The notes below the pieces were generated by a model. It made no database searches, had not been told where the DNA came from, and saw only the letters and a list, made by a program, of their open reading frames with translations. The position numbers and the translations under genes are program-made. This document shows positions 3,074 through 57,730 of a stretch of 64,000 nucleotides of DNA, one piece after another; within the stretch, counting starts at the first letter, position 1, and the number at the start of each line of letters is the position of its first letter. Source of the stretch: Streptomyces yangpuensis (lineage in GTDB: Bacteria; Actinomycetota; Actinomycetes; Streptomycetales; Streptomycetaceae); contig NZ_LBMK01000001.1 in the NCBI RefSeq assembly GCF_001005295.1, positions 178,976 through 242,975 on the forward strand, in the 5' to 3' direction.

Positions 3074-3254
3074 GCGCGGCCGCGGCCGGCGGGCCGGATC
3101 ACCCCTGCCCGGCAGGGCTCCGCAGTCCCTGCGCCACCTCCGCGAAGGCGCGCCCGATCCCGCTCCGGTACGAGGCCGTGGACCACACCCGGGAGGGCCG
3201 GGACCCGCCTCGGACCCGCCTGGGAGCCGCCCCGGGCCCGCCTCGGCGGTCGCC

Positions 3255-3797
3255 TCAGGGGTCGACGATCTCCACCATCGGCGGGTGGTCGTGCCAGGTG
3301 CAGAACACCGACACCTCGCGCCCGTCCCGGGTGAAGGTGACCCGGATCCAGAAGTCCTGCTTCCACACCTGCATCCGCCAGCCCGCCGCCGGTGTCGCCG
3401 TGACCAGCTCGGCCGAGGAGGCGCCGAGGGAGAAGACGACCCGGCCGCCGGAGACCGGATAGGCCTGCACCTTCCCCGAGTCCTGGCCGTCCGGCTGCTG
3501 CGGCCCGCGCGGGGAGGCCGCAGGAGTCTGCGACGGCTTGCCGGCGGAGGCGTCCGGGGCCGGCGACGTGGTCGGGCCGGGCGACGGGGAGGCCGAGGCG
3601 GACGGGGACTGCGACGGCGAGCCCGAGGGCTGCGCGCTCCGGGTCGAGGAGGAGAGCGGCTGGCCGGCCAGGGGCACCGCGAGCGGCCGGTCGTAGGCCG
3701 TGCCCGACATGACGGTGTGGACGCCCCACCAGCACAGCGTCACCGCCGCCCCGGTCGCGAGCATCCACGCCATGGCATGCACAAGTCCTCTTCGCAT
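3255..3797 (-). CDS. Membrane-anchored secreted protein with Ser/Pro linker
   Basis: 180-residue protein of unknown function. An N-terminal hydrophobic segment (about residues 8-26, AMAWMLATGAAVTLCWWGV) is followed by a long low-complexity Ser/Pro/Ala linker (about 50-105), then a compact C-terminal domain ending in CTWHDHPPMVEIVDP. This suggests an extracytoplasmic domain held to the membrane by one helix. ATG at 3797 was preferred to a GTG nine codons upstream because the signal-like segment then begins near the N-terminus. It is divergent from the response-regulator gene with 79 bases between starts, so it may belong to the two-component system as sensor accessory or target; this is inference from position. 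Confidence 0.7.
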   Translation of the reverse strand: MRRGLVHAMAWMLATGAAVTLCWWGVHTVMSGTAYDRPLAVPLAGQPLSSSTRSAQPSGSPSQSPSASASPSPGPTTSPAPDASAGKPSQTPAASPRGPQQPDGQDSGKVQAYPVSGGRVVFSLGASSAELVTATPAAGWRMQVWKQDFWIRVTFTRDGREVSVFCTWHDHPPMVEIVDP

Positions 3798-3876
3798 CAA
3801 GGCACATACTGCACCACGCGCCACAAGAGTGGCCCGACACCCCGTTCAGTCGCCCGGATGGACTACGGTGCCGCCC

Positions 3877-4566
3877 ATGGCAAGTGTGCTCGTGGTCGAG
3901 GACGACCAGTTCGTACGTTCCGCCCTCATCCGGCACCTGACGGAGGCCTCGCACACCGTGCGGAGCGTCGGAACGGCCCTGGAGGCACTGCGCGAGGTCG
4001 CGCACCACCGCTTCGACGTGGTCATCCTCGACCTCGGCCTGCCCGACCTGGACGGGTCGGAGGCGCTCAAGATGCTGCGCGGCATCACCGACGTGCCGGT
4101 GATCATCGCCACCGCGCGCGATGACGAGGCCGAGATCGTCCGGCTGCTCAACGACGGCGCCGACGACTACCTGACCAAACCTTTCTCCGTCGAACACCTC
4201 TCCGCCCGGATGGCCGCCGTCCTGCGCCGCGCCCGGGCCGCCGCCGGAGCCGAACCGCCCTCGCGCGTCCTGCGCGTCGGCGGCCTCGCCATCGACCCGC
4301 TGCGCCGCCAGGCCGAACTCGACGGGGCGGTACTGGACCTCACCCGCCGGGAGTTCGACCTGCTGGCCTTCCTCGCCGGGCGCCCCGGAGTCGTCGTGGC
4401 CCGGCGCGAACTGCTCGCCGAGGTCTGGCAGCAGTCGTACGGCGACGACCAGACCATCGACGTCCACCTGTCCTGGCTGCGCCGCAAACTCGGCGAGACC
4501 GCAGCCCGGCCGCGGTACCTGCACACCCTGCGCGGTGTCGGCGTGAAGCTGGAGCCACCGCAGTGA
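3877..4566 (+). CDS. OmpR/PhoB-family response regulator
   Basis: 229-residue DNA-binding response regulator. The receiver domain (about 1-118) shows the acidic pair E8/D9, phospho-acceptor D52 in VVILDLGLPD, the switch Thr at 79 and K101 in the LTKPF motif. The C-terminal winged helix (about 130-228) includes LTRREFDLLAFLAGRPGVVV and the recognition region DDQTIDVHLSWLRRKLG. All residues needed for phosphorylation are present. It is followed 25 bases later by its cognate histidine kinase, so signalling from the kinase to this regulator is the obvious model. The signal is unknown. Confidence 0.92.
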   Translation: MASVLVVEDDQFVRSALIRHLTEASHTVRSVGTALEALREVAHHRFDVVILDLGLPDLDGSEALKMLRGITDVPVIIATARDDEAEIVRLLNDGADDYLTKPFSVEHLSARMAAVLRRARAAAGAEPPSRVLRVGGLAIDPLRRQAELDGAVLDLTRREFDLLAFLAGRPGVVVARRELLAEVWQQSYGDDQTIDVHLSWLRRKLGETAARPRYLHTLRGVGVKLEPPQ

Positions 4567-15200: not shown

Positions 15201-15207
15201 CCCGCAG

Positions 15208-15280
15208 GGTGAGTGACGGGACTTGAACCCGCGGCCACCTGGACCACAACCAGGTGCTCTACCAACTGAGCTACACCCAC
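15208..15280 (-). tRNA. tRNA-His (GTG)
   Basis: The minus strand folds as a 73-base cloverleaf. Acceptor GTGGGTG pairs with CACTCAC (one G-T pair), the D-arm contains AGCTCAGTTGGTAGAGC, the anticodon stem CCTGG/CCAGG holds loop TTGTGGT (anticodon GTG), and the T-arm carries GGTTCAAGTCC. The discriminator is C73 and the base before the acceptor (15281) encodes G, as expected for the G-1 of tRNA-His. CCA is not encoded. Confidence 0.97.
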
Positions 15281-40537: not shown

Positions 40538-41413
40538 TCAGGCGCGCGGGATGCGGACCACGCCCTCCTGGATGACCGTGATCGCCAGGCGGCCGTCCTG
40601 GGTGTAGATGCGGGCCTGGCCGAGGCCCCGGCCGCCGTGGGCCGAGGGGGACTCCTGGTCGTACAGCAGCCATTCGTCCGCCCGGAAGGGCCGGTGGAAC
40701 CACATCGCGTGGTCCAGTGAGGCGCCGACCACGTCGCCGACCGCCCAGCCGCCGCGTCCGTGCGCGAGCAGGACCGCGTCGAGCAGGGTCATGTCGGAGA
40801 CGTAGGTGGCCAGGCAGGTGTGCAGCAGCGGGTCGTCCGCGAGCTTGCCCTGCGTGCGGAACCAGACCTGCGAGCGCGGCTCCAGCGGTTCGCCGACCGT
40901 GCCCCAGGGCGGGGTGGTCGCGTACCGCAGGTCCACCGCGCCGCGTGCTTCCAGCAGCCGCTCGACGGTGCCGGGGTCGCGGAAGATCTCGCGGTACGGG
41001 GGCAGTGCCTGGAGGGCCGTCGGCAGGGACTCGGGGTCCGGGGCGGCCGGCATCGGGACCTGGTGCTCCAGCCCCTCCTCGTACGTCTGGAAGGACGCGG
41101 AGAGGTGGAAGATCGGCTGCCCGTGCTGGACGGCGACCACGCGCCGGGTGGTGAAGGAGCGCCCGTCGCGAATCCGGTCCACGGAGTAGACGATCGGCGC
41201 GCCGGAGTCGCCGGTCCGCAGGAAGTACGAGTGCAGCGAGTGCGGCAGACGGTCCGCGGGCACCGTGCGCCCGGCGGCGACCAGGGCCTGCGCGGCCACC
41301 TGGCCGCCGAACACGCGCGGCACCAGGGAGGTGCGGCTGGTCCCGCGGAAGATGTTCTCCTCGATCTGCTCCAGGTCGAGCAGATCGAGGAGATCCGTCA
41401 GTGCCTCGTTCAA
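40538..41413 (-). CDS. tesB: Acyl-CoA thioesterase II
   Basis: 291-residue double hot-dog thioesterase that hydrolyses medium- and long-chain acyl-CoA. The two halves begin FRGTSRTSLVPRVFGGQVAAQALVAA and (second) PWGTVGEPLEPRSQVWFRT; the conserved Gln/Thr/Asp region SDMTLLDAVLLAHGRG is present. It begins seven bases downstream of the second acyl-CoA dehydrogenase on the same strand; their products would act on the same acyl-CoA pool. ATG at 41413 follows GGGGAC-type bases. Confidence 0.9.
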   Translation of the reverse strand: MNEALTDLLDLLDLEQIEENIFRGTSRTSLVPRVFGGQVAAQALVAAGRTVPADRLPHSLHSYFLRTGDSGAPIVYSVDRIRDGRSFTTRRVVAVQHGQPIFHLSASFQTYEEGLEHQVPMPAAPDPESLPTALQALPPYREIFRDPGTVERLLEARGAVDLRYATTPPWGTVGEPLEPRSQVWFRTQGKLADDPLLHTCLATYVSDMTLLDAVLLAHGRGGWAVGDVVGASLDHAMWFHRPFRADEWLLYDQESPSAHGGRGLGQARIYTQDGRLAITVIQEGVVRIPRA

Positions 41414-42577: not shown

Positions 42578-42794
42578 GGCCGGCTCCCTTCGTCGCGGCG
42601 GTCCGCCGCCTAAATTAAGCGCTTGCTCAGACTAAGTTACCGACGGGTTGGCCAGGCTGTCCAGATGTGGTCGCACGCGCGTACGTCACACCGGCGCCCC
42701 GAGGGCGGCTGGCCGGATACCTCCTTCTGTCGCCCCGGCCGTGCCGGTTGACTCGGTACGCCCGGCCCTTCCCCCGACAGGACAGGAATCCCAG

Positions 42795-43655
42795 ATGCTC
42801 AGGAGGCTGTTCAGCCTTGCGGTGGCGACGGTGGTGGCCTTTGCGCTCGGCGCGGGCACGGTCCACGCCGAGACGCAGGAGTCGCCGCAGGCCAAGCGGG
42901 TCCACAACGCGATGCAGATCGTTTTCAACGCCTCCACCCCGGACAGCTTCTGCACCATCGGGGCCGTCGGCAGCGACGGCTACGGGCGGAACATCGCCCT
43001 CTCGGCCGGGCACTGCATCTCGGCCCCCGAATATGCCGACCGTGAGATCCACGAGGACCTCATACCCGTCTTCCACCGGCAGGACATCGGCTTCGGGCCG
43101 ATCGGGTACGTCCGGTACTTCAAGGACCCGGAGGGGTCCATGACAGGCCACCTCACCAAGGACTACATGGTGATCGAGCTGGTCGCGGCCGTGACGCCGT
43201 CCTCCCAGGGCCCGCACCTGAAGCAGACCGGGGTGCTGGAGGTGCCGGGCGGGACCCCCAGCCCCAATGCCCTCAGCCCCGCCCCGAACCGGGAGCGGCT
43301 GCTCGGCGCGGCGTGGTTCAACAACAACGAGCTGGTCGTCTCCGGCCAGCTCGGCGTCTGGTACGGCCGGATCACCAACAACGACAGGGGCGTCTACCAG
43401 GCCCACCCCCAGCACAAGGCCGGTGACTCGGGCGGTCCCGCCATCTGGCACGTGCCGGGGACGGCATACCCCTCCGAGGCCAACGGGTTCAAGGCCGAGG
43501 GGCCCTGGGCGGGCATCACCAAGGGGATGATCATCTCGTACCCCTGGTACGTGTACACCAGCTCGGCCAACATCCTGGCCGACCTGCGTGCCCGCGACAC
43601 CGCCGACCCCGCCGACGTCTACGGCGCCGGCTTCCAGGTGACCGCCAATCCCTGA
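42795..43655 (+). CDS. Secreted trypsin-fold serine protease
   Basis: 286-residue exported protein with a Sec signal peptide (MLRRLFSLAVATVVAFALGAGTVHA). The catalytic His is in ALSAGHCIS, Ser in HKAGDSGGPAIW, and the Asp is probably the one in KDYMVIEL, though this segment departs from the usual DIALL. Only two Cys pairs at most are visible, so it is a compact bacterial S1 enzyme; target unknown. ATG at 42795 after GACAGGAATCCCAG. Its 217-base leader is not assigned. Confidence 0.82.
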   Translation: MLRRLFSLAVATVVAFALGAGTVHAETQESPQAKRVHNAMQIVFNASTPDSFCTIGAVGSDGYGRNIALSAGHCISAPEYADREIHEDLIPVFHRQDIGFGPIGYVRYFKDPEGSMTGHLTKDYMVIELVAAVTPSSQGPHLKQTGVLEVPGGTPSPNALSPAPNRERLLGAAWFNNNELVVSGQLGVWYGRITNNDRGVYQAHPQHKAGDSGGPAIWHVPGTAYPSEANGFKAEGPWAGITKGMIISYPWYVYTSSANILADLRARDTADPADVYGAGFQVTANP

Positions 43656-43683
43656 CCCGGCGCGCGGGGCCGGTGGCCCGTGA

Positions 43684-43709
43684 GGGGCCGGCTACCGCTT
43701 CCCGGCCCC
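43684..43709. terminator. Hairpin terminator after protease gene
   Basis: Eight-base arms GGGGCCGG (43684-43691) and CCGGCCCC (43702-43709), 28 bases after the protease stop; it overlaps the end of the pucR remnant. Confidence 0.7.
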
Positions 43710-43980
43710 GGGAAGGCGGCGCAGGGCGAACCAGCTCCATCCGGGTGTCCGGGTCGTCCAGGTCGCGCCCCAGCAGCACCGCCGCCCGGGCGACGCGCTG
43801 GCGGACGGTGGTGCGGTGCACGGCCAGGGCGGCGGCCGTGCGGTCCCAGCTGCCGTGTGGTGCGCGCACCACACGGCAGCGTCTCGGTGGGCCGCCCCCA
43901 GCGGCGCCGGCAGGGTCTCGGCGAGGGCGTGGGCCTCCGCCGGGTCGAGGAGGTCCGCGGCCTGCAGTGGAGGGCTTGCA
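43692..43980 (-). pseudogene. Truncated, frameshifted pucR remnant
   Basis: The minus strand encodes the last 95 or so residues of a PucR-type regulator, homologous to the intact gene at 56202-57614. In one frame it reads LLDPAEAHALAETLPAPL...AAVWCAHH, in another [41 protein letters not shown], and back in the first FALRRLPGAGKR. Comparison shows two extra bases after the CACCAC codons and two missing bases before the FALR segment; the shifts compensate. No N-terminal part exists: homology stops near 43980, where the defence island begins. It is a relic, not a working gene. Confidence 0.85.
43849..43880. repeat. Perfect 32-bp palindrome in the pucR remnant
   Basis: Two 16-base arms with no spacer, centre CGCG, key half GCTGCCGTGTGGTGCG. 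In the intact relative the equivalent stretch lacks the two bases (AC) that complete the symmetry. The palindrome therefore coincides with the frameshift. Confidence 0.95.
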
Positions 43981-44100
43981 CATAGTGAGTCACTGCAGAG
44001 ATATCCGCCCAGTCCATAAGGCCGTCGGCACGCCCCGATGCCGCCCGACGCGAGCCGCTGTCTTAGATGACCATTACCCTGGCCGCGGAGAGGGGGCAGC

Positions 44101-45372
44101 ATGCTGCTGAGGTTCCGCACCGCGAACGTACGGTCCCTGCGCGATGAGCAGGAGCTGTCGTTCGTCGTGTCCGGGGACGACGAGGGCGAGCCGAGCGAGG
44201 CCGCCCGGCCGGTGGAGCTCGCCGGTGGGCAGACCGTGGGGGTTCTCCCCCTGATCGGCATCTTCGGTGCCAACGCCTCCGGCAAGTCGAACGTGCTCGC
44301 CGCCATGACGGACATGCGTACCGCAGTCCTGCACTCCTACGGGAGGTGGGCCTCGCACGACACCGTCCCGCGCCGTCCCTTCGCGCTCGACGCCAAGGAG
44401 GGGGGCGAGCCGAGCTTCTTCGAGGCGGACATCGTCCTCGACGGTGTGCGCTGGACCTACGGCTTCGAGCTGGGCACTGCACGCGTCGAGGCCGAATGGC
44501 TGCACTGCTACCCGCGCGGTCACCGCCAGGTGTGGCTCGACCGGGACGCCTCCCGCGCCGAGGTCTACGACTGGCCCGGCGCCCGCGTGAAGGACCGCAC
44601 CCAGCTGGCGCGGCGGACCCGTCCCAACGCCCTGCTCCTGTCCACGGCGGGTACGGACAACCACCCACAGCTGTCGGCGCTCTACCACTGGTTCCGCCGC
44701 AATATGTGGCTGATCGGCCCGGAGACCGAGCGGGTGGAGCGCGAGCAGTACACGACGCGTGAGCTGGCCGGCAGCCGTGCGCGTCGCATCAACGAGCTGC
44801 TCCAGGTCGCCGACCTCGGCATCACCGGCGCCGAGGTCGTCGACGAAGGACAAGGCAAGGGCCCTGCGACGGTCCGTCTCACCCACCGGTCGGGCGGCGC
44901 AGACGTCGCCCTCGACTGGCGGCACGAGTCCTTCGGCACCCGTTCCTGGTTCGCCCTCCTCGGACCCATGCTGCTCGCACTCGATGAAGGAGCCGTCCTC
45001 CTCGTCGACGAACTGGACTCCAGCCTCCACCCGCGTTTCGCCGCCGAGGTCGTCCGGCTCTTCCACGACCCGGACGCGAACCCCCGCGGAGCCCAGCTGG
45101 TCTTCACCTCGCACGCCCCCTCGGTGCTCAGCACCCCGAGCGGCGGGCGGCTGCTGGAGCCGGGCCAGGTGTGGCTGACCGAGAAGGACAAGGACGGAGC
45201 GACCGAGCTCTACCCGCTGACCGCCGCGTCCCCGGGGAAGGACGAGGACCTCATGCGGTCCTACCTGGCGGGAGCCTTCGGCGGAGTCCCAGCCCTCTTG
45301 GAGGGCCAGATCGCGCGGCGTCTGACGGCCGCGACCGCACAGGAACGGGAGCACGGGGTGGAGCGGAGCTGA
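44101..45372 (+). CDS. AAA/ABC-type ATPase, RloA/AbiLii-like
   Basis: 423-residue ATPase of the SMC/OLD-type class often found in defence islands. Walker A GANASGKS (56-63) follows LIGIFGANASGKSNVL, the ABC-like region includes LDWRHESFGTRSW, and Walker B LLVDELDSSLHP has D303-E304. QLVFTSHAPSVLS gives the His switch. RloA/AbiLii proteins pair with a RloB partner next to type I restriction genes; the downstream gene is such a partner (stop/start overlap TGATG). Likely an abortive-infection ATPase; mechanism inferred. ATG at 44101 follows GAGAGGGG. Confidence 0.85.
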   Translation: MLLRFRTANVRSLRDEQELSFVVSGDDEGEPSEAARPVELAGGQTVGVLPLIGIFGANASGKSNVLAAMTDMRTAVLHSYGRWASHDTVPRRPFALDAKEGGEPSFFEADIVLDGVRWTYGFELGTARVEAEWLHCYPRGHRQVWLDRDASRAEVYDWPGARVKDRTQLARRTRPNALLLSTAGTDNHPQLSALYHWFRRNMWLIGPETERVEREQYTTRELAGSRARRINELLQVADLGITGAEVVDEGQGKGPATVRLTHRSGGADVALDWRHESFGTRSWFALLGPMLLALDEGAVLLVDELDSSLHPRFAAEVVRLFHDPDANPRGAQLVFTSHAPSVLSTPSGGRLLEPGQVWLTEKDKDGATELYPLTAASPGKDEDLMRSYLAGAFGGVPALLEGQIARRLTAATAQEREHGVERS

Positions 45373-46052
45373 TGGCGCGTACGAGGGGGAAGGACTCGCT
45401 GACGTCCGCCAAGCCGAAGGGCGGGAAGCGGCGCCGGGTGGTGCATGTCTTCACGGAAGGCAAGGTCACCGAGCCCGAATACATCAGGATCGTCCAGGCC
45501 AGGGGCGTCCTGAAAGATCCGGGCGTGCAGGTCGACGTGCACATCGCCAACGACTCGGCGGCGGGCTCCCACCGCAAGCCGATCAAGCTGGTGGAGGACG
45601 CCGTCCGGCTGATGCGCGAGGAAGTCCGCGCCGCGAAGCGCAGCAAGCTGGACCCCGAGTCGGAGTTCTGGCCGCAGGTCTGGTGCCTGTTCGACCGGGA
45701 CGAGCACGAGCAGATCGAGGCGGCGAGGAAGCAGGCCAAGGAAGCGGGCGTACAGATCGCCTTCTCCCACCCCTGCTTCGAGCTGTGGCGACTGCTGCAC
45801 GTCAAGACCGTGGACGCGCAGTTCGGCGGGGCCTGCAACCAGGTGACCGCGCGCCTGCCGTTCGCCAAGAACACCGACAACATCAAGCACGTGGAGTCGG
45901 ACCAGATCCCGAAGAACAGCTTCAAGCTGGCCAAACAGCGCGCCCAGAAGATCAACTCTGCGTACGGTGAGCACGTGTCCTGGCTCCATCGCGATCCTTA
46001 CACGGACGTCTTCGAGTTCGTTGAGAAGGGGCTGGGGATCACCGCCTACTGA
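45372..46052 (+). CDS. RloB-family protein, probable effector of RloA
   Basis: 226-residue protein matching the RloB family (FTEGKVTEPEYI near the N-terminus, CLFDRDEHEQIE in the middle, and the hallmark SHPCFELW at 132-139). E29-G30 and the D108-x-D110 pair are spaced like the acidic residues of Toprim nucleases, so it may be a nuclease switched by RloA; this is inference from motif spacing. Its ATG overlaps the RloA stop by one base (TGATG), giving strong coupling. Function in phage defence is suspected, not proven. Confidence 0.82.
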   Translation: MARTRGKDSLTSAKPKGGKRRRVVHVFTEGKVTEPEYIRIVQARGVLKDPGVQVDVHIANDSAAGSHRKPIKLVEDAVRLMREEVRAAKRSKLDPESEFWPQVWCLFDRDEHEQIEAARKQAKEAGVQIAFSHPCFELWRLLHVKTVDAQFGGACNQVTARLPFAKNTDNIKHVESDQIPKNSFKLAKQRAQKINSAYGEHVSWLHRDPYTDVFEFVEKGLGITAY

Positions 46053-46147
46053 CGGGCCCGGCCTCGGCCGGATACACGGTTTTCGCCGGTGTCCACTGTC
46101 GCCGTACTGTTTCCTACGTCGCATCGGGGTCGTAGGGAGTCGTATTC

Positions 46148-48745
46148 GTGGCCAAGCTCACGCTCGCGCAACTGGAGCGGCATCTGTTCGCCGCTGCGGA
46201 CATCCTCCGCGGCACCATGGATGCTTCCGAGTACAAGGACTACATCTTCGGGCTGCTCTTCCTGAAGCGGGCCAACGACGAGTTCGAGGCCGCGCGGGAC
46301 CAGATCCGCGAGTACGCCGCCAAGGAGCTCGGGCTCGACGGCGAGCTGCTGGAGGGCTACCTGGAGCAGGAGTCCGCGTACAGCGACCGTGACGTGCTCT
46401 TCGTTCCGGCAGAGGCCCGCTGGAAGGGCATCTCTGCGGCCACCCACAACATCAATGAGCAAACGCTGCGCCCCGCCCTCCAAGCCCTGGAAGGCCAGAA
46501 CAGCAAGCTCAAGGGCCTCTTCGACCATCTCGACTTCAACCGCATCGGCGGCTCCGGCACCTCCGGCGGCGCGGCCAAGCTCGCCGACCAGCGCCTCAAG
46601 CTGCTGATCGCGCACTTCGGGCGGGTCCGGCTGCGGACCGACGACTTCGAGTTCCCCGACCTGATCGGCGCCGCGTACGAGTACCTGATCAAGGAGTTCG
46701 CGGACTCGGCCGGCCGCAAGGGCGGCGAGTTCTACACCCCGCGCGCCGTGGTCCGGATGATGGTCGAGCTGCTCGGCCCCAAGCAGGGCATGCGGATCTA
46801 CGACCCGTGTGTCGGCTCGGGCGGCATGCTGATCCACGCCAAGGAGTACGTGGAGGAGCACGGCGGGGACACCTCGGACATGTTCTTCGCCGGCCAGGAC
46901 GCCAACAGCGGCTCCTGGATCATGTCCACGATGAACATGGTGCTGCACGGCGTACGCCGCTTCGACCTCACCACCGGCGACACCCTGGCCGAACCGACCC
47001 ACGTTCCGAAGTCCGACGCGGACCGCTTCGACGGGGTTCTCAGTAACCCGCCGTTCTCCATGGACTACGTGGCCGCCGACCTCCAGTACGCCGCCCAGCG
47101 CACGACGTACGGCATGACCAGCGAGCGCGGCAAGGCCGACCTGATGTTCCTCCAGCACATGCTGTGGGAGACCAAGCGGGAGGGGCGCGGCGGCATGGTC
47201 ATCACGGTCATGCCGCACGGTGTGCTGTTCCGGGGCGGCGGCGAGCAGGAGATCCGCACCAAGCTGCTCGACGAGGACGCGATCGAGGCCGTCATCGGCC
47301 TGGCCCCCAACCTCTTCTACGGGACCGGCATTCCGGCCTGCATCCTCCTGCTGCGCCCGCCGGGCCGCAAGGACCCGGCGCGGGCGGGCAAGGTGCTGTT
47401 CATCAACGCGGACCGCGAATACCACTCGGAGCGCGCCCAGAACGTCCTGCTGCCGGAACATGCAGAGAAGATCGTCACCACCTTCCACGGCTACACCGAG
47501 GTGCCAGGCTTCTCGCGGATCGTGACCCGCGAGGAGCTGGCGGCCAACGACGACAACCTCAACATCCGCCGTTACGTGGACAACACCCCGCCGCCGGAGC
47601 CGCAGGACGTGCGGGCCCACCTGGTGGGCGGGGTGCCGCGCGCGGAGATCGAGGCGAAGAAGGAACTGCTGGACGCTTACGGGGTGAAGCTGACCGACCT
47701 CTTCGCGGAGCGCTCCCCGGCGGACCCCGACTACGTGGACTTCCTACCGGAGGGCAGCCGCCCGGACGCGGCCCGGCTGGCGGAGCTGGCCCGCCCGCGT
47801 GAGGAAGCCCTGCGGGCGGCGTTCGGACGGTGGTGGGAGAAGGAGGCCCGCCACCTGGAGGCGGTGGCCGCAACCCCGGAGCGTCTGGCCGACCTGACCG
47901 CGTCGGAGCGCAAGGCAGGGCTGATGGCGGTACGCGGCGAGCTGATCGAGTCGTTCGTCGAGCGGCTGGGAGAGGTAGACCTCCTCGACCGTTACGCCCT
48001 CGCGGGCGCGGTGGCCGGCTGGTGGTACGAGGCCAAGTACGACCTGCTCGCGCTGTCGGAGAACGGCTTCGCGGGCGTCCTGGACGGCTGGGTCGAGAAC
48101 GTGGACACCCTGCTGGCCCCGGAACAAGACCCGAAGACACGCAAGCTCCGCAAGCGCACCGCCGCCGAACGCCGCCAGGCGTACGACCACAAGGTGGTCG
48201 CGGCGATCGCCCCGGACTTCCTGGAGAAGCTGGCGGCGGCGGACGCGCGTAAGGCGGAGCTGGACGCACGGTGGAAGGAACTCAACGCGGAGCCGGAGCC
48301 GTCGGAGGACGACGAGGCGGACGAAGCGGACACGCCGACGCGCGAGGCGGTCGCCCTGAGCGTGGAGCAGCTGGCGGAACTGGCGCACGTGAAGAGGGAA
48401 CGCACCAAGGCCGCCGCCCTGATCAAGCGCCTGGAGGCGGACTTCTGGTTCCCCTGGCCGAGCGACCCGCCCAAGCTGGGCGAGGACCCGCCGGGCCTGT
48501 TCGCGGCGCGGCAGAAACTGGCGCTGGACCCGGACGCCGAGCGGCGGGTGGTGCTGGAGCTCCTCCGGGACGACCTCGCGGGCAAGCTGGAGGGGCATGT
48601 GGTCCGCAGGCGGCGGGAGTTGGCCGACGCATACGGGGTGTGGTCAGACAAGTATGTGGTGTCGCTCAAGGAGATCCGCGCGGAGCGCGAGCGAGCGGCG
48701 GCCACGCTGGACGGCTTCTTGAAGGAGCTGGGCTATGCCAACTGA
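46148..48745 (+). CDS. hsdM: Type I restriction-modification methyltransferase subunit
   Basis: 865-residue N6-adenine methylase. The N-terminal HsdM domain starts [39 protein letters not shown] motif I is DPCVGSGGM (219-227) and the catalytic motif is N300-PPF. A long C-terminal extension (from about 525) with [12 protein letters not shown], coiled, charged helices and many KR/EE pairs makes it about 300 residues longer than EcoR124-type HsdM; long forms do exist. GTG at 46148 follows AGGGAG. It overlaps hsdS by 11 bases. Confidence 0.92.
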
Positions 48746-49943
48746 TGCTGAAGTGCGGTGGCTCCCTGTCCGCGAGGTCGGGGAGGTTCGCATGGGGAAG
48801 CAACTTTCTCCCGCGAGCCGTGAAGGGGTGGGGCAGTTCCCCTATCTCAGGGTTGCCAATGTGTATGAAGATCGAATTGACCTCGCTGATGTGAAGACTA
48901 TGAGCTTCACGCGAGCCGAGCGCCGGGTGTATGAGCTTCATCCGGGCGACATTCTCTTGAACGAAGGTCAGGAGAATCTTCGAATGGTCGGGCGAAGTGC
49001 CCTATATTCAGGCCCTGCGGGATCCTATTGCTTCCAGAACACGCTTATCAGATTTCGGCCTGGATCCCACGTTATTCCCGAATATGCGCAAGCGGTTTTC
49101 GTTCGATGGCGACTGAATGGTGTGTTCGCTGGAATCGCGGAGAAGACCAGCATTTCCCATCTAGGTGGAAACCGGTTCGGGTCCCTACTTTTTCCCTGGC
49201 GACCGCTTCGGGACCAGCGGCGGATTGTCGGGGTGGTCGATGCTGTATCGGAGCAGGAGCGCGCTATCGAAGCCTCGATCGCGAAGCTCAAGGCTATGCA
49301 CTCAAGGGCACTGGATGGGCTGCTCGACGGGCTGGAGTGGGATTCCGTGCTGGCGGAAGCTTCGATCGGTGCGATCCGTAACGGATTCTCTCCGATCGAA
49401 AGCGAGGCGTGGACCGGAGTGCAAATGCTGGGGCTCGGCTGCCTCACGCGTACAGGGTTTGAGCCTGTTCAGCTGAAGAATGCCCCGTCGTCCGTTACGG
49501 CTAAGCATCCCGCCGCTCTGTGCGATGGCGACCTGCTGATGAGTCGAGCTAATACGCGAGAATTGGTTGGATTGGCTGGGGTGTATCGGGATGTTGGTGT
49601 GCCATGCATTTACCCGGACCTCATGATGAGAATTCGAGCGTCCGCTCGCTGTTCAGCGGAGTTTCTGGACGCGGTTCTGAGGTCGACTCGCTCGCGTCGC
49701 TATGTACGGTCGATGGCGCAAGGTACTTCAGAAAGCATGGTGAAGATCTCGGCGAAGACGGTTCGGGAGCTGCCCGTCCCGCTGCCAAGCCTTGAAGAAC
49801 AAGCGCGAGTGCTGGCAACCCTTGGTGATCTGTCTCGACAGGTGGATGCTGAGGGCGAAGAGTTGGCCAAGCTGCGAAGCCTCAAGCGCGGGCTTATGGA
49901 CGGCCTGCTGAACATTGGGGGAGGGCCCGCCCTGTCCGGTTAG
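48735..49943 (+). CDS. hsdS: Type I restriction-modification specificity subunit
   Basis: 402-residue DNA-recognition subunit. Two target recognition domains (about 1-150 and 205-350), each followed by a conserved coiled-coil: [42 protein letters not shown] (near 155-195) and [42 protein letters not shown] at the end. Base composition drops clearly below its neighbours (for example around 48900-49200 and 49500-49700), as expected for exchanged TRDs. The ATG at 48735 lies inside the hsdM end. Recognition sequence cannot be deduced. Confidence 0.9.
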
Positions 49944-49976
49944 GACTTCGCGAAGAGCCGACCGGCGGCGTCTGGC

Positions 49977-50198
49977 TCAGGCCGGGAACTTCCCGGCCTT
50001 GAGGGCCGTGACGAACATTGACCAGATGGCCGTCGGGAAGACTAGGGCCGGGCCTCGCGGGGTCTTGGAGTCGCGGACCGGGATGCCTGACGGGTGGTCG
50101 TCCAGGACCTCGACGCAGCTGCCGCCGTCGCCGCTGCTGTAGGAGGACTTGCGCCAGCCGCTCAGTGCTGCCGCGTTCGAGATGCTGCGCTCAGTCAT
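49977..50198 (-). CDS. DUF397 small regulator partner
   Basis: 73-residue protein with the DUF397 pattern: LSGWRKSSYSSGDGGSCVEV in the N-half and IPVRDSKTPRGPALVFP followed by a short helix. Such proteins pair with XRE/DUF5753 regulators (WhiJ/AbaA-type groups of Streptomyces), and the upstream gene is one; the coding ends overlap by eight bases. Located on the strand opposite to hsd genes inside the island. The role is probably to modulate DNA binding of the partner. Confidence 0.9.
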   Translation of the reverse strand: MTERSISNAAALSGWRKSSYSSGDGGSCVEVLDDHPSGIPVRDSKTPRGPALVFPTAIWSMFVTALKAGKFPA

Positions 50199-50985
50199 CG
50201 TGCCCGTATTCCTTCGCCGTCGCCCTCAGTAGGGCAATCGACTCCTTGCGTGGGAGTGCGTCGCCCAAGGCGAGAGTGTATGTGTGCCGCAGCGTCTCAA
50301 CCAGGTCGGGAGAGTCGTGCAGTTTGCCCATCAGTACGCCTTCGCCGTACGCGACTGGAGGCTGGTCCTCGAACGTCATCAGCGACAGCATCCCTTGGAG
50401 TAGCGGGTGGTAGCCCACTCCAAAGGGGAGGATGTACGCGCGAACGCGCCCTTCGTCCGAGAGGCGAGCGATGTGGAGGAGCTGGTTCGCCATGACCTTC
50501 GCGCCACCAACGCGACGGCGTAGCACTGCCTCGTCCAACAGCGCGCAGAATAGCGGCGAGGCCGGGTTGGTGAGGACCTTTGCGCGCTCCAGCCGTGTGA
50601 CAAGGAGCCTGTCACATTCCGCTTCACCCCGAGGAGGGAACCCAGGCCGCAGAACCGCCCGCGCGTATCCGTCAGTCTGCAAGACGCCGGGTACCAGGGA
50701 CAGTGCGAACTCCTGGATCATCGTCGCCTGTTGTTCGAGCTGGCGAGCCGCCTCGAAGTAGTCGGCGACCGCCGCGTCCTCCTCCGGCAGGAAGCTGCTC
50801 AGCACGTTCCCCGTGTTCAGGACCCTGTCCAGGCGTCGCGCGTCCTCCTTCGACGGCACGCGGCGGCCCGCCTCGATGTGGGAGATGTGCGAGCGGGTCA
50901 TGATCGCCGCGTCGGCCAGTTGCTGCTGGGTGAGCCCGGCCGTCTCGCGCTGCGCCTTCAACCAGTCCCCATAGATGTTGCTCAC
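50191..50985 (-). CDS. XRE-family regulator with DUF5753 (WhiJ-like)
   Basis: 264-residue regulator. N-terminal HTH (about 5-60) reads GDWLKAQRETAGLTQQQLADAAIMTRSHISHIEAGRRVPSKEDARRL. The C-terminal domain (FALSLVPGVLQTDGYARAVL, ERAKVLTNPASPLFCALLDEAVLRR, VGYHPLLQGMLSLMTFEDQPPVAY) is the DUF5753/Scr1 type. GTG at 50985 was preferred because GGGAG lies seven bases before; the frame extends 13 codons upstream. A 7-base-arm inverted repeat lies just before the start. It may control the restriction genes or an independent small locus; unknown. Confidence 0.88.
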   Translation of the reverse strand: MSNIYGDWLKAQRETAGLTQQQLADAAIMTRSHISHIEAGRRVPSKEDARRLDRVLNTGNVLSSFLPEEDAAVADYFEAARQLEQQATMIQEFALSLVPGVLQTDGYARAVLRPGFPPRGEAECDRLLVTRLERAKVLTNPASPLFCALLDEAVLRRRVGGAKVMANQLLHIARLSDEGRVRAYILPFGVGYHPLLQGMLSLMTFEDQPPVAYGEGVLMGKLHDSPDLVETLRHTYTLALGDALPRKESIALLRATAKEYGHDD

Positions 50986-50997
50986 GGTCAACTCCCA

Positions 50998-51018
50998 TGT
51001 GACAGAGGCGTTGTCACA
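50998..51018 (-). promoter_or_regulatory. Inverted repeat upstream of XRE gene
   Basis: TGTGACA (50998-51004) and TGTCACA (51012-51018) with seven bases between, directly ahead of the XRE start region. A candidate operator for self-control. Confidence 0.45.
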
Positions 51019-51191
51019 CGCCACCCACTGGCGAGGCTACTCCGCTTCGTCTCACCCTGTGAGGGGATCGCTACTCAGCGATGTCCCGTGATGTCCCTGC
51101 GCCCGGCCGTTCCTGGCCGTGCACGCAAGGACCCCCGCGACCGCTCTGAACGGTCCGGGGGCGTGGACGCCAACCAACTGGAGTTGACGAC

Positions 51192-51416
51192 GTGTTGCAC
51201 TGTATCGCCCGCCTCTTCGAGGCGTTGCTGTACCTGCTCTGGGCCGACCCGGGTTCCCGGGTGGTGCCCGCCCGGCCCGGCACCCCGTACCGTCCCGCCC
51301 GCGCACGCCGCGCCCGCGCCCGCCGGCAGCGGGCCAGGCGGGTGGCGTTGTGGCTGGCCCTGCACGGGGTCGATATCGGGCCACGTGTCATCCACGGCCG
51401 GGTGGTGGCCGCGTGA
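51192..51416 (+). CDS. Small hydrophobic/basic protein, coupled to next ORF
   Basis: 74 residues: a hydrophobic N-terminus (MLHCIARLFEALLYLLW) then a strongly basic Arg/Pro middle and LALHGVDIGPRVIHGRVVAA. I know similar short proteins near XRE/DUF397 pairs in Streptomyces, but no function. GTG at 51192 with GGAG eight bases upstream. Its TGA overlaps the ATG of the next ORF by one base, so the pair is translated together. Divergent to the XRE gene. Confidence 0.65.
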   Translation: MLHCIARLFEALLYLLWADPGSRVVPARPGTPYRPARARRARARRQRARRVALWLALHGVDIGPRVIHGRVVAA

Positions 51417-51736
51417 TGGGCCGGTGTGCCGACGAGGGGCGGTTGCTGCCCTGGGCCAGTCCGGACGGGAAGCCCTGCTACCTGATGGGCGACGGGAGCG
51501 GATACCTCTCCCGCGTCGCCGACAACGTCGAGAGCGTGCAGCTCGGCATGGCCGTCGAACTGCTCGACCACGCCCACGACATGCTCTCCGACTGCCGTGC
51601 CACCTCCGCTCAGCTGCACTACCTCGCCGCCCGCATGGCCGAGGCGCTGCGTGACGTCCACCGCATCGCCCGCAGCCGGGGTGCCCGGCTGCCCGTCCCG
51701 GTCCATGACGGGGACGAGCCGGCTCCCGGAATGTAG
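51416..51736 (+). CDS. Small hypothetical protein of the XRE-linked pair
   Basis: 106 residues, acidic and soluble. Starts MGRCADEGRLLPWASPDGKPCYL, then GDGSGYLSRVADNVESVQL and a helix GMAVELLDHAHDMLSDCRATSAQLHYLAARMAEALRDVHRIA. No known domain. ATG at 51416 overlaps the previous stop. It ends 129 bases before hsdR on the same strand, so it may be co-transcribed with hsdR. Conserved small companions of this kind are frequent near XRE/DUF397 genes. Confidence 0.7.
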   Translation: MGRCADEGRLLPWASPDGKPCYLMGDGSGYLSRVADNVESVQLGMAVELLDHAHDMLSDCRATSAQLHYLAARMAEALRDVHRIARSRGARLPVPVHDGDEPAPGM

Positions 51737-51865
51737 AGGGCGCCCCGCATGTCCTGGTACGTGACCGTCTCCACCCGCTCCCGTACGGCCTGATCCCTCC
51801 CGCTCACCCCCGCTGCCCCGCACAATGGATCACCTGAGCGGGCGGTGGGCGGAGGGCGCGGGGGC

Positions 51866-54800
51866 ATGGTGGTTCAAATCGAGCGGGACGAGGTCGAGCG
51901 GCCCATCGTCGACCAGCTGGTGGCGATGGGCTGGACCCACATCCCCGGCAAGCAGGTCGGCGCGCTGAATGCAGGCATGCCGCTGCTCGCCGACAAGCTG
52001 AGTGACGCCCTGCGCCACATCAACGTCCGGGCCGCCGACGGCAAGCCGTGGATGAGTGACTCCGACGCGGCCCGCGCCATCGCCGAGCTCGCCGCAGGCA
52101 CCGGCGGCAAGAGCGTCGCGCACGCCAACTTCGCCGCCACCGACCTGCTGCTCAGCGGGGCCGTCCTCAGCAATCCCTCCGCCGGGCACGGCGGGGCCTC
52201 CGCCACCGTGCAGTACATCGAGTGGCATGAGGAACGCGTCGACCTCAACACGTTCACGGTCGTCGACCAGTTGCGTGTCACGAACAGCTCTGGGGAGCTG
52301 TCGATACTCGACATCGTCCTCTTCGTGAACGGCATCCCGCTCGTCGCCGTCGAGTGCAAGAGCCCCGAGCTGTCCGACCCCATCCGCAGCGCCGTCCTCG
52401 ACCTGCGGCACTACGCGGGGGACCCGCTCGCCGACGACGAGCGCGACGGCACCGACCTGCCGCCGCCCGCCGGCGTGCCCGAGCTGTTCCGGACCGTCCA
52501 GCTGCTGGTCGCCGCGACCGATCAGACCGCGTACCTGGGCACCATCACCTCCACCCCCGACCACTTCCACCCCTGGCGCAGCATCGAGCCGCAGACCGAG
52601 GCCACGCTCAGGGCCGGGCTGCCCAAGGGCACTGGCAAGCTCAACGAACGGCACAAGCTCGTCGGCGTCGTGCTGCGGCCCGCCGCGCTGCTCAACCTCG
52701 TACGCCACTACGTCATCCCGCTCCCCGTCGAGAGCGAGTCCGGCGGCACCCGAACCGTCAAGGCCGTCGCCCGTCACCAGCAGTACCGGGCGGCCGAGAA
52801 GGCGGTGCACAAGCTGCGGAACGGGCGCTGCCGCGGCCCCCTCGTACCGGACGACGAGCGCGGCGGGATCATCTGGCACACCCAGGGCTCCGGCAAGAGC
52901 CTGACCATGGCGTTCCTGGTGCGCCGGATCCATCTGCACCACGATCTCAGCGAGTTCACGGTGGTCGTGGTCACCGACCGGACGCAGCTCCAGACCCAGC
53001 TCTCCAAGACGCTCAGGCTCAGCGAGTCGGACGTGCAGACCGCCGAGACCCGCACCCAGATGGAGGGCCTGCTGAGGGACGGCGGGCGGCGGGTCGTCTT
53101 CGCGATGATCCAGAAGTACGGCACCGGACTCAACTTCGCTGGAGACGGGGACGGCGACGGCTCGGGTGACGGGGACGGCCGGGACCTCGCGGGGGAGTAC
53201 GCGGACGCCGAGCGGGCCAGGAAGCAGCCCAAGCCGAAGTCCGAGGCTGCGCCGCCCGTGGTGGACTTCCCCGAGTGCAACAGGTCCTCCGACATCCTCG
53301 TCCTGGTCGACGAGGCCCACCGCTCGCACACCAGCGTGCTCCACGCCGCCCTGCGCAAGGCGATCCCGAACGCGGCGAAGATCGGATTCACCGGTACGCC
53401 GATCATGACCGAACGGGCGGACGACACCCGCCGGATCTTCGGCGCGTTCCTCGACACCTACCGGATGGCCGAGGCCGAACGCGACGGTGTCGTCGTCCGC
53501 ATCCGCTACGAGGGCCGTACCGGCAAGGGCAAGGTCTTCGACAAGGAAGGCCTGGACCGGAACTTCGCCGACCTGGTCCGCGACCGAACGGCCCAGGAGA
53601 CCCGGACACTGCTCAACCGCACGCCCTCCGAGCGCGACGTGGCCGAGTCCCAGCCGATGATCCGGGCCAAGGCCGAGGACATGCTGGAGCACTGGGTGAC
53701 GTGGGTGCTGCCCGGCGGCGGCTTCAAGGCCCAGGTCGCCGCCGTCAGCCGCAGGGCGGCCGTGGAGTACCACCACGCCCTCCGGCTCGCGCGCGACACC
53801 CTGCTGGCCGACCTCGCCGCTTTTGACCCGGAGTCGCTGGCCGGGACCCCGCTGGACAAGCTGCCTCGGCGCGAGCGCTACCTCTACCAGGCCCACCAGT
53901 ACCGCGCGCTGCTGCGCCGGATCGACTTCGTGCCGGTCGTCTCCCCCGGAGAGGAGAAGAAGCGGCGCCAGTGGCTTCACTGGACGGAGAAGACCCGGCA
54001 GGACGCGTACATCGAACGCTTCCACCAGGCCTTCCCGCTCCTGGAAGCGGAAGCGGACTGGCTCACCGCCGTGCCGTTCGACCCGCCCGCACAGGACCTC
54101 ACGGGCCCGGACGGCGGCGTCGGCGACCACCCCTGGTCCCAGGACGCCGCCGAGGCACAGCCGACGGCCGTGCCCGACCCCGTGCACCCCGACAGCCCCA
54201 TCGCCTTCCTCATCGTGAAGTCCATGCTGCTCACCGGATTCGATGCCCCTCGCGAGCAGGCGCTCTACCTGGACCGGCCGATCCGGGACGCCGAGCTGCT
54301 CCAGGCGGTGGCCCGGGTCAACCGGCCCGCGCCGGGCAAGGAGGTCGGATACGTCGTCGACTACTACGGCGTCTTCGAGCACCTGACGGGCGCGCTCGCC
54401 GCGTACGACCAGGCGGACGTCGACGACACGATGCGTGGCCTGTCCGCGGAGCTCGACGGTCTGAAGCCGGCGGCTGACGCGGTGCGCGATCTCCTGCTCG
54501 CCTATGGGCTCAGCGATGCGGACCTCGCCGACCCGGCCACGCTGGGCGGCAAGCTGGAGGCCTTCGACCCCGAGCCTGCCCGGTTCGCGTTCGACACCGC
54601 GCTGCACGAGTTCCTCGCCGTGCTGGAACGCGTACTCCCGCACGAGGACGGTCTGGAGTACGTGGCCCACGCCCGGCTCTGGGGCATGCTGCAAAAGCGC
54701 GTCCGCAGGCTCTACCGGGACGCGCCGGGCGGGACGTTCACCCTGCGCCGCTACGGCCGCAAGGTACGCGCGATGATCGCCGACCATCTGGAGGGGCCGG

Positions 54801-55417
54801 AGATCGACCAGGTCATCGCCCCCGTGTCGCTGGGCGCTCCCGCCTTCGACGACCACGTCCGCACGCTCCCCGCGCGCGAGGCCGCCGCGGAGATGGGGCA
54901 CGCGCTCCGCTTCCACCTGGAGGAGCGGGTCAAGCGGGAGGACCCGGGGAAGTACAAGGAGCTCTCGGAGCGCCTGGAGGAGATCCTGCGGGATCTCCCC
55001 GGACGTTTCGAGGATCAGGTCCGGGAGTTCGGCGACCTGATCGACAAGGCTCGTGGGCAGGATGCGGAGGACCCTGCCACGGAGGGGCTCAGCCCACTGG
55101 AGCAGAAGGTGTACCGGCTGCTGGACAAGCTCCTGGACGAGAACCCCGGCGTCGCGCGGGGTCAGGCCGCCGCCGATGCCCGCCCGCTGGTGGAAGCGGT
55201 GTGCGATACGGCCGGGCAAGCCATGGCCAAGGCTTCCTACCAGGGCCAGCATCAGGACGTCACGGCGCTGGCGAGCAGCATTCAGAACCGGCTGCTGGGC
55301 GGCGGGCTGAAGCCGGCCGGCGGCGACTGGGCCCCCTTGCGTGCCGTCGCGGAAGGCCTCGCGGCGTACGCGGCGGCGCACAAGCAGCAGTTCCTGGCCA
55401 GAGCCCGGGGAGAATAG
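51866..55417 (+). CDS. hsdR: Type I restriction endonuclease subunit
   Basis: 1183-residue DNA translocase-nuclease. The N-terminal PD-(D/E)xK nuclease is D149-x13-E163-C-K165 (LDIVLFVNGIPLVAVECKSP). SF2 motor: Walker A HTQGSGKS with K344, DEAH box 482-485 (LVDEAHRS), TGTPI and MLLTGFDAPREQALYLD. The C-terminal part has a coiled helical region. It requires HsdM and HsdS to cut DNA distant from unmethylated sites. ATG at 51866 follows GGAGGG; a GTG 7 codons earlier is possible. All motifs appear intact, so the restriction activity should be functional. Confidence 0.94.
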   Translation: MVVQIERDEVERPIVDQLVAMGWTHIPGKQVGALNAGMPLLADKLSDALRHINVRAADGKPWMSDSDAARAIAELAAGTGGKSVAHANFAATDLLLSGAVLSNPSAGHGGASATVQYIEWHEERVDLNTFTVVDQLRVTNSSGELSILDIVLFVNGIPLVAVECKSPELSDPIRSAVLDLRHYAGDPLADDERDGTDLPPPAGVPELFRTVQLLVAATDQTAYLGTITSTPDHFHPWRSIEPQTEATLRAGLPKGTGKLNERHKLVGVVLRPAALLNLVRHYVIPLPVESESGGTRTVKAVARHQQYRAAEKAVHKLRNGRCRGPLVPDDERGGIIWHTQGSGKSLTMAFLVRRIHLHHDLSEFTVVVVTDRTQLQTQLSKTLRLSESDVQTAETRTQMEGLLRDGGRRVVFAMIQKYGTGLNFAGDGDGDGSGDGDGRDLAGEYADAERARKQPKPKSEAAPPVVDFPECNRSSDILVLVDEAHRSHTSVLHAALRKAIPNAAKIGFTGTPIMTERADDTRRIFGAFLDTYRMAEAERDGVVVRIRYEGRTGKGKVFDKEGLDRNFADLVRDRTAQETRTLLNRTPSERDVAESQPMIRAKAEDMLEHWVTWVLPGGGFKAQVAAVSRRAAVEYHHALRLARDTLLADLAAFDPESLAGTPLDKLPRRERYLYQAHQYRALLRRIDFVPVVSPGEEKKRRQWLHWTEKTRQDAYIERFHQAFPLLEAEADWLTAVPFDPPAQDLTGPDGGVGDHPWSQDAAEAQPTAVPDPVHPDSPIAFLIVKSMLLTGFDAPREQALYLDRPIRDAELLQAVARVNRPAPGKEVGYVVDYYGVFEHLTGALAAYDQADVDDTMRGLSAELDGLKPAADAVRDLLLAYGLSDADLADPATLGGKLEAFDPEPARFAFDTALHEFLAVLERVLPHEDGLEYVAHARLWGMLQKRVRRLYRDAPGGTFTLRRYGRKVRAMIADHLEGPEIDQVIAPVSLGAPAFDDHVRTLPAREAAAEMGHALRFHLEERVKREDPGKYKELSERLEEILRDLPGRFEDQVREFGDLIDKARGQDAEDPATEGLSPLEQKVYRLLDKLLDENPGVARGQAAADARPLVEAVCDTAGQAMAKASYQGQHQDVTALASSIQNRLLGGGLKPAGGDWAPLRAVAEGLAAYAAAHKQQFLARARGE

Positions 55418-55422
55418 GGCGC

Positions 55423-56205
55423 GTGAGCGCCCTTGCCGAAGACAGCCGGTCCCCCTCCATGGCCGAGGGGAGCCTTCTGGCCGTCGACGGCCTGGAGCTG
55501 CGGGTGCGGGTCAGCGCGCGCCGTAGGCGCTTCGCGCTCACGGTGGAGCCGGACGCCGGTCTGACCCTCCACGCACCCGAGGGCCGGCCGGTCGCCGACG
55601 CGGAGGACTTCGTCCGTGCCCACCGCTCCTGGCTGGTGGGCAAGATCGGGCTACGCGAGGCGACCCGCCCGCTGAACCCGACGAAACGACTCGCAGAGGG
55701 GGAGGTCTTCCGCTATCTGGGCCGGACCTACCGGCTCACCCTGGCCGGGGACCAGCCCACCGGGAGAAGGGTCCGGCTGATCGCCGGCCGTCTCGTCATG
55801 GGCGAGGGGACGGCAGCCGATCCGGACCGGGGGAGAGCGGCTCTCGTCGACTGGTACTGCCGGGCGGGGCAGAAGTGGGCGTCCGGGCGGCTGCAGCCAT
55901 GGGCGGCACGCATGGCCGTCGCCGAGCCGGAACTCGACGTGCGCGACCTCGGAAGCAGGTGGGGAAGCTTTCGTCACGACGGTGAGCGAGCCGGATGCGG
56001 ACGGATGAGCCTCGGCTGGCCGCTCTTCCAGCTTCCGATGCACCTCGTGGACTACGTCGTCGCCCACGAACTGGCCCACGTGCGCGTGTCCGGACACCGG
56101 GCCGACTTCTGGCGGCTGCTGGGGCAGGCGCTGCCCGAGTACCAGGAGCGCAAGAACGAGCTCGACGAACTGGGCCGCCGCATGTGGATGGGCGAGATCG
56201 CCTAG
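55423..56205 (+). CDS. YgjP-type (M48-like) metallopeptidase
   Basis: 260-residue zinc-peptidase-like protein. The zinc motif is H215-E-L-A-H219 (VVAHELAHVRV), with a third ligand likely in SGHRADFWRLL just after, as in YgjP/DUF45. The N-half is a beta domain (LRVRVSARRRRFALTVEPDAGLTLHAPEG). It begins five bases after the hsdR stop with GTG at 55423, and its TAG is interlocked with the stop of the convergent pucR gene (CTAG). Such genes are frequent companions of type I restriction loci; the peptidase target is not known. Confidence 0.88.
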   Translation: MSALAEDSRSPSMAEGSLLAVDGLELRVRVSARRRRFALTVEPDAGLTLHAPEGRPVADAEDFVRAHRSWLVGKIGLREATRPLNPTKRLAEGEVFRYLGRTYRLTLAGDQPTGRRVRLIAGRLVMGEGTAADPDRGRAALVDWYCRAGQKWASGRLQPWAARMAVAEPELDVRDLGSRWGSFRHDGERAGCGRMSLGWPLFQLPMHLVDYVVAHELAHVRVSGHRADFWRLLGQALPEYQERKNELDELGRRMWMGEIA

Positions 56206-57614
56206 TCCACCGTGCGCAGCGCGAACCACAGCTCCATCCGGACGTCCGGGTCGTCCAGGTCCCGGTCCAGCAGGGCCGCGCAGCGCGCCACCCGCTGGCG
56301 CACGGTGTTGCGGTGCACGTCCAGGGCGGCCGCCGTGCGGTCCCAGCCGCCGTGGTGCGCCAGCCAGGCCCGCAGGGTCTCGCGCAGCGCGGGGGAGAGC
56401 GGCCCGAGCAGGGCCTCGGAGTGGGCGCGGGCCTCGGCCTCCCCGACCAGGCCCGCGAAGCCGGCGTCGGCGTGCCGGGCCAGCGGGGTACGGGCCGCCT
56501 CCGCGCGCTGGAGCGCCCGTCCGGCCTGGGCGTCGGCCGCGGCCAGGGCGTCCGGCTCCGCGCCCGGCTCCGCGGGGGCGCTCACCCCCAGCCGCCAGCC
56601 GGGCTGCGCGCCGGGCTCCCGGTCGGTCAGCAGCCGTACGACCGGCCCGCCCGGGTCCAGCAGTACGGTGCCCAGCGCGTCGGCGAGGGCCCGCGGGTCG
56701 CCGCCGCCGCGGGCGTGGACGGCGTACCAGGGCCCGGCCGTCAGGGCCGCGGCGGGATCCCCGTCGAGCAGCAGCCGGGTCAGGGCCGCGGCCTCGGTCC
56801 CGGCGGGCCGCTCGGCGGTGAGCAGGGTCAGCAGTACCGCGGCCACCGAGGCCACGGTGTGGTCGCCGGGCGCGCGGGCCGGGGTCGCGGTGCCCAGCGC
56901 GGCCCGCCCGGCCAGGGCGTAGGCGGCCAGGTGGTGTCCGCCCGCCCGGTCCGTGGCCGTGGCGGGCCCGCCCTCGCGGCCGACCCGGGCCAGCAGCGCG
57001 GCCAGCGCCTCCCGGGCCGGGGCGGGCAGTTCCGGGCCCGCCGTCCGGCCGCCCGGCCACAGGGCGGCCGACCCGCCCAGGCTCGCGGCGAGCCGGGCCA
57101 GCACCGCCGGGACCGGATCGGGCCGGGCCGCGGCCGAGGCCAGGGCCTGCTGGGCCTCCGTGGTCCGGCGCAGCTCCCGGGTCCGGGCCTCCGCCGTCAG
57201 CCGCCCCACCGCGCGGGCGACCGCCGAGAACGGGGTCCGCGGCGGAACCTCCAGCAGCGGCAGCCCGTGCCGGGCGCAGGCCTGCGCCAGCGCTGCCGGG
57301 ACCTCCTCGTGCACCGGGGCCACGCCGAAGCCGAGGGCGGCCGCCCCCGCCCCGGCCAGCCGGGCCACGTACCCGTCGGGGTCCTCTGCCGGGCCCGCCC
57401 CGGCGGTCAGCAGCAGCTCGCCGCCGAGCAGGTAGGGGGAGGGGTCCGGCATCTCGGAGGCGTGCACGCCGTGCACCCCGGCGGCGGCCGGCCCGGCGAG
57501 GTGGCGCAGGCCGAGCTCCCGGTCGGCGAGCAGCGAGGCGAGGAGCACCGGCGGGGTCAGCGGCTCCCCGGCCGGGCCGTTGCCGTACTCCGGATCACGG
57601 GGAGCGGCGGACAT
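56202..57614 (-). CDS. PucR-family transcriptional regulator
   Basis: 470-residue regulator. The N-terminal PucR sensing domain ([17 protein letters not shown]..., [11 protein letters not shown]) leads to a GGDEF-like middle region and a C-terminal HTH_30 domain: [57 protein letters not shown]. It is divergent to the ureohydrolase gene (116 bases between starts) and probably controls that gene and the following ThDP enzyme in response to nitrogenous compounds. ATG at 57614 follows GGAG. Its stop overlaps the metallopeptidase stop by three bases; a remnant of a second copy lies at 43692-43980. Confidence 0.9.
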
Positions 57615-57730
57615 GGATACTCCATACACATCAGTGGGACCAGATGGATGAAACGTACACTCCCCACCCCCGTGCGGCCCGCTTACGCTCGAAGTACCGC
57701 ACACGTCAGGCCAGAGAAAGAGGCACAGCC

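Follow-up and report, generated by a model that had tools for sequence, protein, structure and literature searches.

Quasipalindrome correction in genomes is reportedly the subject of a 2003 paper by van Noort et al., whose title points to the same idea as that developed here. In Escherichia coli, template switching at quasi-palindromes has been established with a lacZ reporter (PMC7202029). Inverted-repeat arm homogenisation has been inferred for yeast genes such as REG2, whose perfect arm lengthened from 5 bp to 16 bp (PMC8604942), and for RNA hairpins it has been proposed that a single template switch can generate a perfect stem (PMC8794818). The class of event is thus already known, and the scar presented in this study adds one more instance to it. 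The site itself was not named in the listed results of our literature search, and no wider claim is made.

The DNA analysed here (the window) is a 64,000-nucleotide stretch of Streptomyces yangpuensis. The initial annotation reported a perfect, spacerless palindrome of 32 bases in a pucR remnant, and this is present at exactly 43849-43880 as two arms of 16 bases, GCTGCCGTGTGGTGCG/CGCACCACACGGCAGC. It ranks longest among the spacerless palindromes of the window, where the runner-up has 18 nt, and it occurs at a single location in its own genome (7.65 Mb, 14 contigs). No exact match was found in genome_contigs, a set that may omit the own genome, and its inner 20-mer had no copy in viral_contigs. 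With independent bases, a palindrome of this length is expected about 2e-4 times per 64 kb and 0.03 times per 7.65 Mb. Real genomes hold more: elsewhere in the own genome, 800 kb contained two spacerless palindromes of at least 32 nt (36 and 40 nt), and two more (34 and 36 nt, one in an Amycolatopsis and one in a Nonomuraea locus) were found in 585 kb of fetched loci, which partly overlap and include three from the own genome. Length is therefore insufficient as proof, and the case for template switching rests on sequence comparison.

Other repeats were seen along the way. Long spacerless palindromes of the own genome include those at L149 9136 (40 nt), L158 1664 (36 nt) and L154 1210 (26 nt), and the last two have in common a GTTTCACGTGAAAC core, a putative parS-like site. 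In the window, perfect 16-bp arms with a 6-base loop lie at 41356-41393 within an acyl-CoA thioesterase ORF; this repeat also matches inverted in the loci of several relatives and seems conserved.

The 32-base palindrome is part of a pucR scar (about 43692-43965, minus strand) that is truncated on its 5' side and keeps roughly the final 90 codons out of about 500. One readable frame contains an HTH_30 domain (43732-43854, minus strand; E 1.2e-14, 54.2 bits against a cut-off of 27), and this C-terminal family profile match marks the fragment as the remnant of a PucR-family regulator. Neither the N-terminal PucR domain nor a full-length gene was found in the scar, as its DNA homology to the closest relative, G526, stops near 43953-43965. 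An 8-bp inverted repeat, CTGCAGTG/CACTGCAG, with 21-base spacing (43962-43969 and 43991-43998) is located where the pucR homology ends.

G526 was the one close match when genus genomes were searched with the scar, and its gene is intact. No scar carrier was found among the genomes searched (392 + 392, partly the same; 61 + 21, largely repeats; and 12 named), samples drawn from a larger group in which an unseen carrier may exist. The same search against plasmids gave three weak partial matches only. The intact pucR of G526 occupies the same locus, with the neighbours found at the scar, namely a protease-like ORF and an acyl-CoA dehydrogenase. Its DNA identity to the scar is 87%, rising to 90% across 42680-43953, and the two are sisters with support of 0.99 in a FastTree tree whose 61 sequences were mostly chosen by a fixed-length pattern. 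The initial annotation had taken as its reference the intact PucR-family regulator of the window (PucR and HTH_30 domains; 56202-57704, minus strand), which has only 76% DNA identity to the scar, G526 being the much better comparison. Because it is 13% diverged, G526 serves only as a proxy for the ancestor.

Read in pucR sense, G526 has GGGAGACGCTGCGCGCCTGGCTCGCCCACCACGGCAGC where the scar has GAGACGCTGCCGTGTGGTGCGCGCACCACACGGCAGC. Four length changes separate the two (-2, -1, +2 and -2, a sum of -3). The first removes two bases beside the palindrome (43883-43888, minus strand; GGG in G526 versus G in the scar), the second falls within one arm, the third is an extra AC, and the fourth lies downstream (43731-43737, minus strand; CTGTGG versus CTGG). 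The initial annotation was right about the AC and about a nearby, frame-restoring loss of two bases, and the translation behaves as it described, AHR..AHH and WFALRR sharing one frame and GSWDRT..RMEL lying in another; it missed the adjacent -2 and the in-arm -1. It had also called the frameshift inactivating, a description that may not hold, because the fragment, with just ~90 of about 500 codons left, is dead by truncation too. The scar was probably already dead before the palindrome formed.

The AC is absent from G526 and from every homologue row displayed. No AC or other indel between CTG and GGC was found in 30 homologue rows, own intact copy included, or in the best 26 of 71 homologous loci, and it is on these rows and loci, which include some duplicates, and on G526 that the claim rests. 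A further set of 62 homologous cores is uninformative on indels because its members had to fit a pattern of fixed length.

The two arms differ in how far they depart from G526. The 3' arm in pucR sense, nearest the HTH end (43849-43864, minus strand), is conserved: it carries the AC within 43855-43860 and one C/G difference and otherwise retains the letters of G526. The 5' arm (43865-43880, minus strand) is the changed one and is now the exact reverse complement of the 3' arm; in the BLAST alignment it shows a net one-base loss and four substitutions. The one-sidedness of the change is moderate and depends on the alignment: differing columns in the changed arm number 5/17 with BLAST and 11/17 with MAFFT (best edit count 6 in 19 letters), against 3/16 with either program in the AC arm (2 edits in 12 letters).

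The five changes of the 5' arm are exactly those that complete its pairing with the AC arm. When the 5' arm of G526 is written opposite the arm with AC, 12/16 positions already pair, with one bulge; the G526 arms without AC make 11 pairs and stand 6 edits apart. The AC thus improved the register, and the remainder looks like correction. For comparison, 66 of 20,000 random 17-mers of the window come within 5 edits of the arm's complement. The outcome in the scar is a pair of longer and more perfect arms, 16 + 16 versus interrupted pairing. The scar strand is predicted to fold into the palindrome hairpin (z -3.4), whereas the G526 strand folds no better than shuffles in two runs (z +1.2 and +0.2), nor does a hypothetical G526 strand with AC added (z +0.7); with or without AC, its predicted fold prefers a different hairpin. 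Judged by these predictions, the ancestral repeat is one of letters, without predicted structure. GCGCAC stands at the palindrome centre in 7/62 homologous cores, so an ancestor with a CGCG centre is plausible.

The perfect symmetry is best explained by template switching, which is well supported. A single inverted copy accounts for five of the differences from G526, because the one-base loss and the four substitutions all complete pairing, and in a simple switch model the cost of change falls from 9.8 without a switch to 4.6 plus one event. Against the 62 homologous cores, the gain for the scar ranged from 5.2 to 10.4 with a median of 7.6; among 1472 random homologue pairs, the 99% point was 5.6 and the maximum 6.6. 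The scar therefore stands out among pairs of like divergence. Its gain against G526 alone (5.2) falls under that 99% point, which comes from a poorly matched control whose pairs are more diverged and whose median is the code for no solution.

We assign a probability of about 0.7 to an origin of the palindrome by AC-first template switching in the dead pucR scar. The pucR 3' end would have been left as a dead scar next to a defence island. An imperfect inverted repeat would first have acquired a two-base AC duplication in one arm, which aligned the register of the two arms; to judge from its letters, the AC looks like ordinary dinucleotide slippage or tandem duplication that was subsequently copied to the other arm. 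At a later round of synthesis of the window's plus strand, the new strand would have copied the AC arm, quit its template near the CGCG centre, which is self-complementary and could act as the switch point, and then used its own arm or the sister strand as template for about 14-16 bases. Return to the template would have occurred at the GCTGC/GCAGC repeat, and removal of the bulge and the four mismatches would have yielded the 32-base palindrome. A simple fold-back hairpin fits poorly with the absence of a spacer, and because the product is spacerless a switch from strand to strand would be favoured over a tight fold-back. The AC-first order, the strand, the switch points and the relation of the AC to the switch event are inferred.

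The initial annotation also invoked quasi-palindrome template switching, and this class of mechanism is supported. It had the copying run the other way, with the AC taken from the other arm into the conserved arm, breaking the frame; the direction was probably the reverse, and we consider its version unlikely. The other arm now reads GTGTGG and would template CCACAC, and GTG TGG is present at that place in 1/62 distinct homologous cores. With the 62 cores, which are more distant homologues, standing in for the ancestor, the stretch best explained as a copy is the 5' arm in 46 and the AC (3') arm in 15, so that these 15 favour the AC arm as the copy; they also run opposite to the G526 comparison, in which the AC is cheaper as a slippage duplication. 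However, copying into the AC arm leaves the changes of the other arm unexplained, though each matches the AC arm, and the AC is equally a plain tandem duplication. It is also the costlier direction, by 0.4 to 4 units, in 16/16 combinations of ancestor and cost built on G526, the two directions being nearly equal with cheap gaps (4.6 versus 5.0).

The defence island (44043-56205, plus strand) comprises rloA, rloB, hsdM, hsdS, an unknown ORF, hsdR and a gene for a YgjP-like metallopeptidase, and its left edge (44043) was set where matches to other genomes begin. On the other side of the scar is the ORF (42648-43655, plus strand) that is protease-like by eye only, without a Pfam match, and whose G526 homologue adjoins the intact pucR. 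In relatives, pucR stands beside the acyl-CoA dehydrogenase gene; the gap is smallest in L037 and L039, at a few bases, and largest in G416, at about 3.3 kb. Streptomyces amritsarensis (L096), the closest named relative seen, with flanks 95.7% and 97.8% identical, carries a different gene in the gap (3140-4520), which by eye looks similar to a serine beta-lactamase/carboxypeptidase-type hydrolase.

A strong match to the rloA end was found in 25/392 genomes, own included, and 20 of the 24 others also match pucR. Of those 20 genomes, 17 have both matches on one contig and no more than 21 kb apart; the matches are far apart in one and on different contigs in two. Seven regions were read. Three of them (G266, G387 and G076) have the island between pucR and the acyl-CoA dehydrogenase gene, and three (G131, G160 and G279) have it on the side of pucR that faces arginase; in G379 it is on the far side of pucR from the usual place of arginase, with the acyl-CoA dehydrogenase out of view. 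The gap of G387 has the gene order of the window (YgjP, hsdR, unknown, hsdS, hsdM, rloB, rloA) and has no room for a scar and a protease-like ORF, because rloA is about 255 bases from the acyl-CoA dehydrogenase gene. Since 17/20 are near and 3/7 in the gap, the RloAB/type I restriction neighbourhood by pucR recurs, though not always in that exact gap. Integration linked to a tRNA gene was rejected, the sole tRNA of the window being at 15207-15280, and no integrase was detected among the ORFs scanned with Pfam at the island (7, 10 and 5 in three scans).

The scar and the protease-like ORF look like the remains of an earlier occupant, and such a history is more likely than the AC to have killed the gene. 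It is quite improbable that repair synthesis during arrival of the island at the pucR 3' end made the palindrome, in which case template-switch scars might mark the edges of islands exchanged at a recurring hotspot linked to pucR.

We regard it as very unlikely that the dead gene reached the palindrome by chance, through ordinary substitutions and indels that arose independently. The scar does decay elsewhere, with two -2 indels and 40/262 differing columns outside the palindrome (MAFFT, against G526), and an ancestor already paired at 12/16 positions needed just five changes. However, all five changes of one arm run towards the complement of the other. Decay was simulated on a 58-base stretch of G526, each run receiving at random positions 6 substitutions, one duplication of 2 bases and two losses, one of 2 bases and one of 1 base. 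None of 6000 simulated decays matched the observed gain (maximum 5.0 versus 5.2), and none of 400,000 gave a palindrome of at least 32 nt, the longest having 26.

Selection for a functional palindrome, such as an operator, terminator or recombination site, is more doubtful still. The symmetry is perfect, the island edge adjoins, and the core shared by two other long palindromes of the genome may be that of parS. Against this, the 32-base palindrome has a single location in the genome and no exact match in genome_contigs, and it is absent from the 30 homologue rows, the best 26 of 71 loci and G526. A role as terminator or promoter was rejected, as no terminator-like or sigma-70-like site was found at 43600-44150. 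An assembly or amplification artefact is hardly credible: the genome is a draft in 14 contigs, but the arms are short and local, the contig is otherwise ordinary, and the frame is disturbed elsewhere in the scar too.

Perfect symmetry inside a dead gene thus need not signify a binding site. The locus provides a natural bacterial case, comparable with an intact relative, where a single template switch can explain the five changes that complete a perfect 32-bp palindrome. The recurrent defence-island neighbourhood by pucR is flagged here and is open to survey.

As in the E. coli lacZ report (PMC7202029), an inverted repeat, here imperfect by its letters, apparently became perfect by copying of the other arm, with a change of frame. 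That case is a designed reporter with an 18-bp quasi-palindrome, whereas ours is a natural scar compared with one relative at 87% identity. The work on RNA hairpins (PMC8794818) likewise has a single event create or complete a perfect stem, although RNA function is not indicated for the scar palindrome. Yeast REG2 (PMC8604942) made a comparable jump of its uninterrupted outer arm from 5 bp to 16 bp; there the change sits in a coding gene and is polarised with the help of close strains, whereas the present setting is a bacterial scar with an added 2-base duplication.
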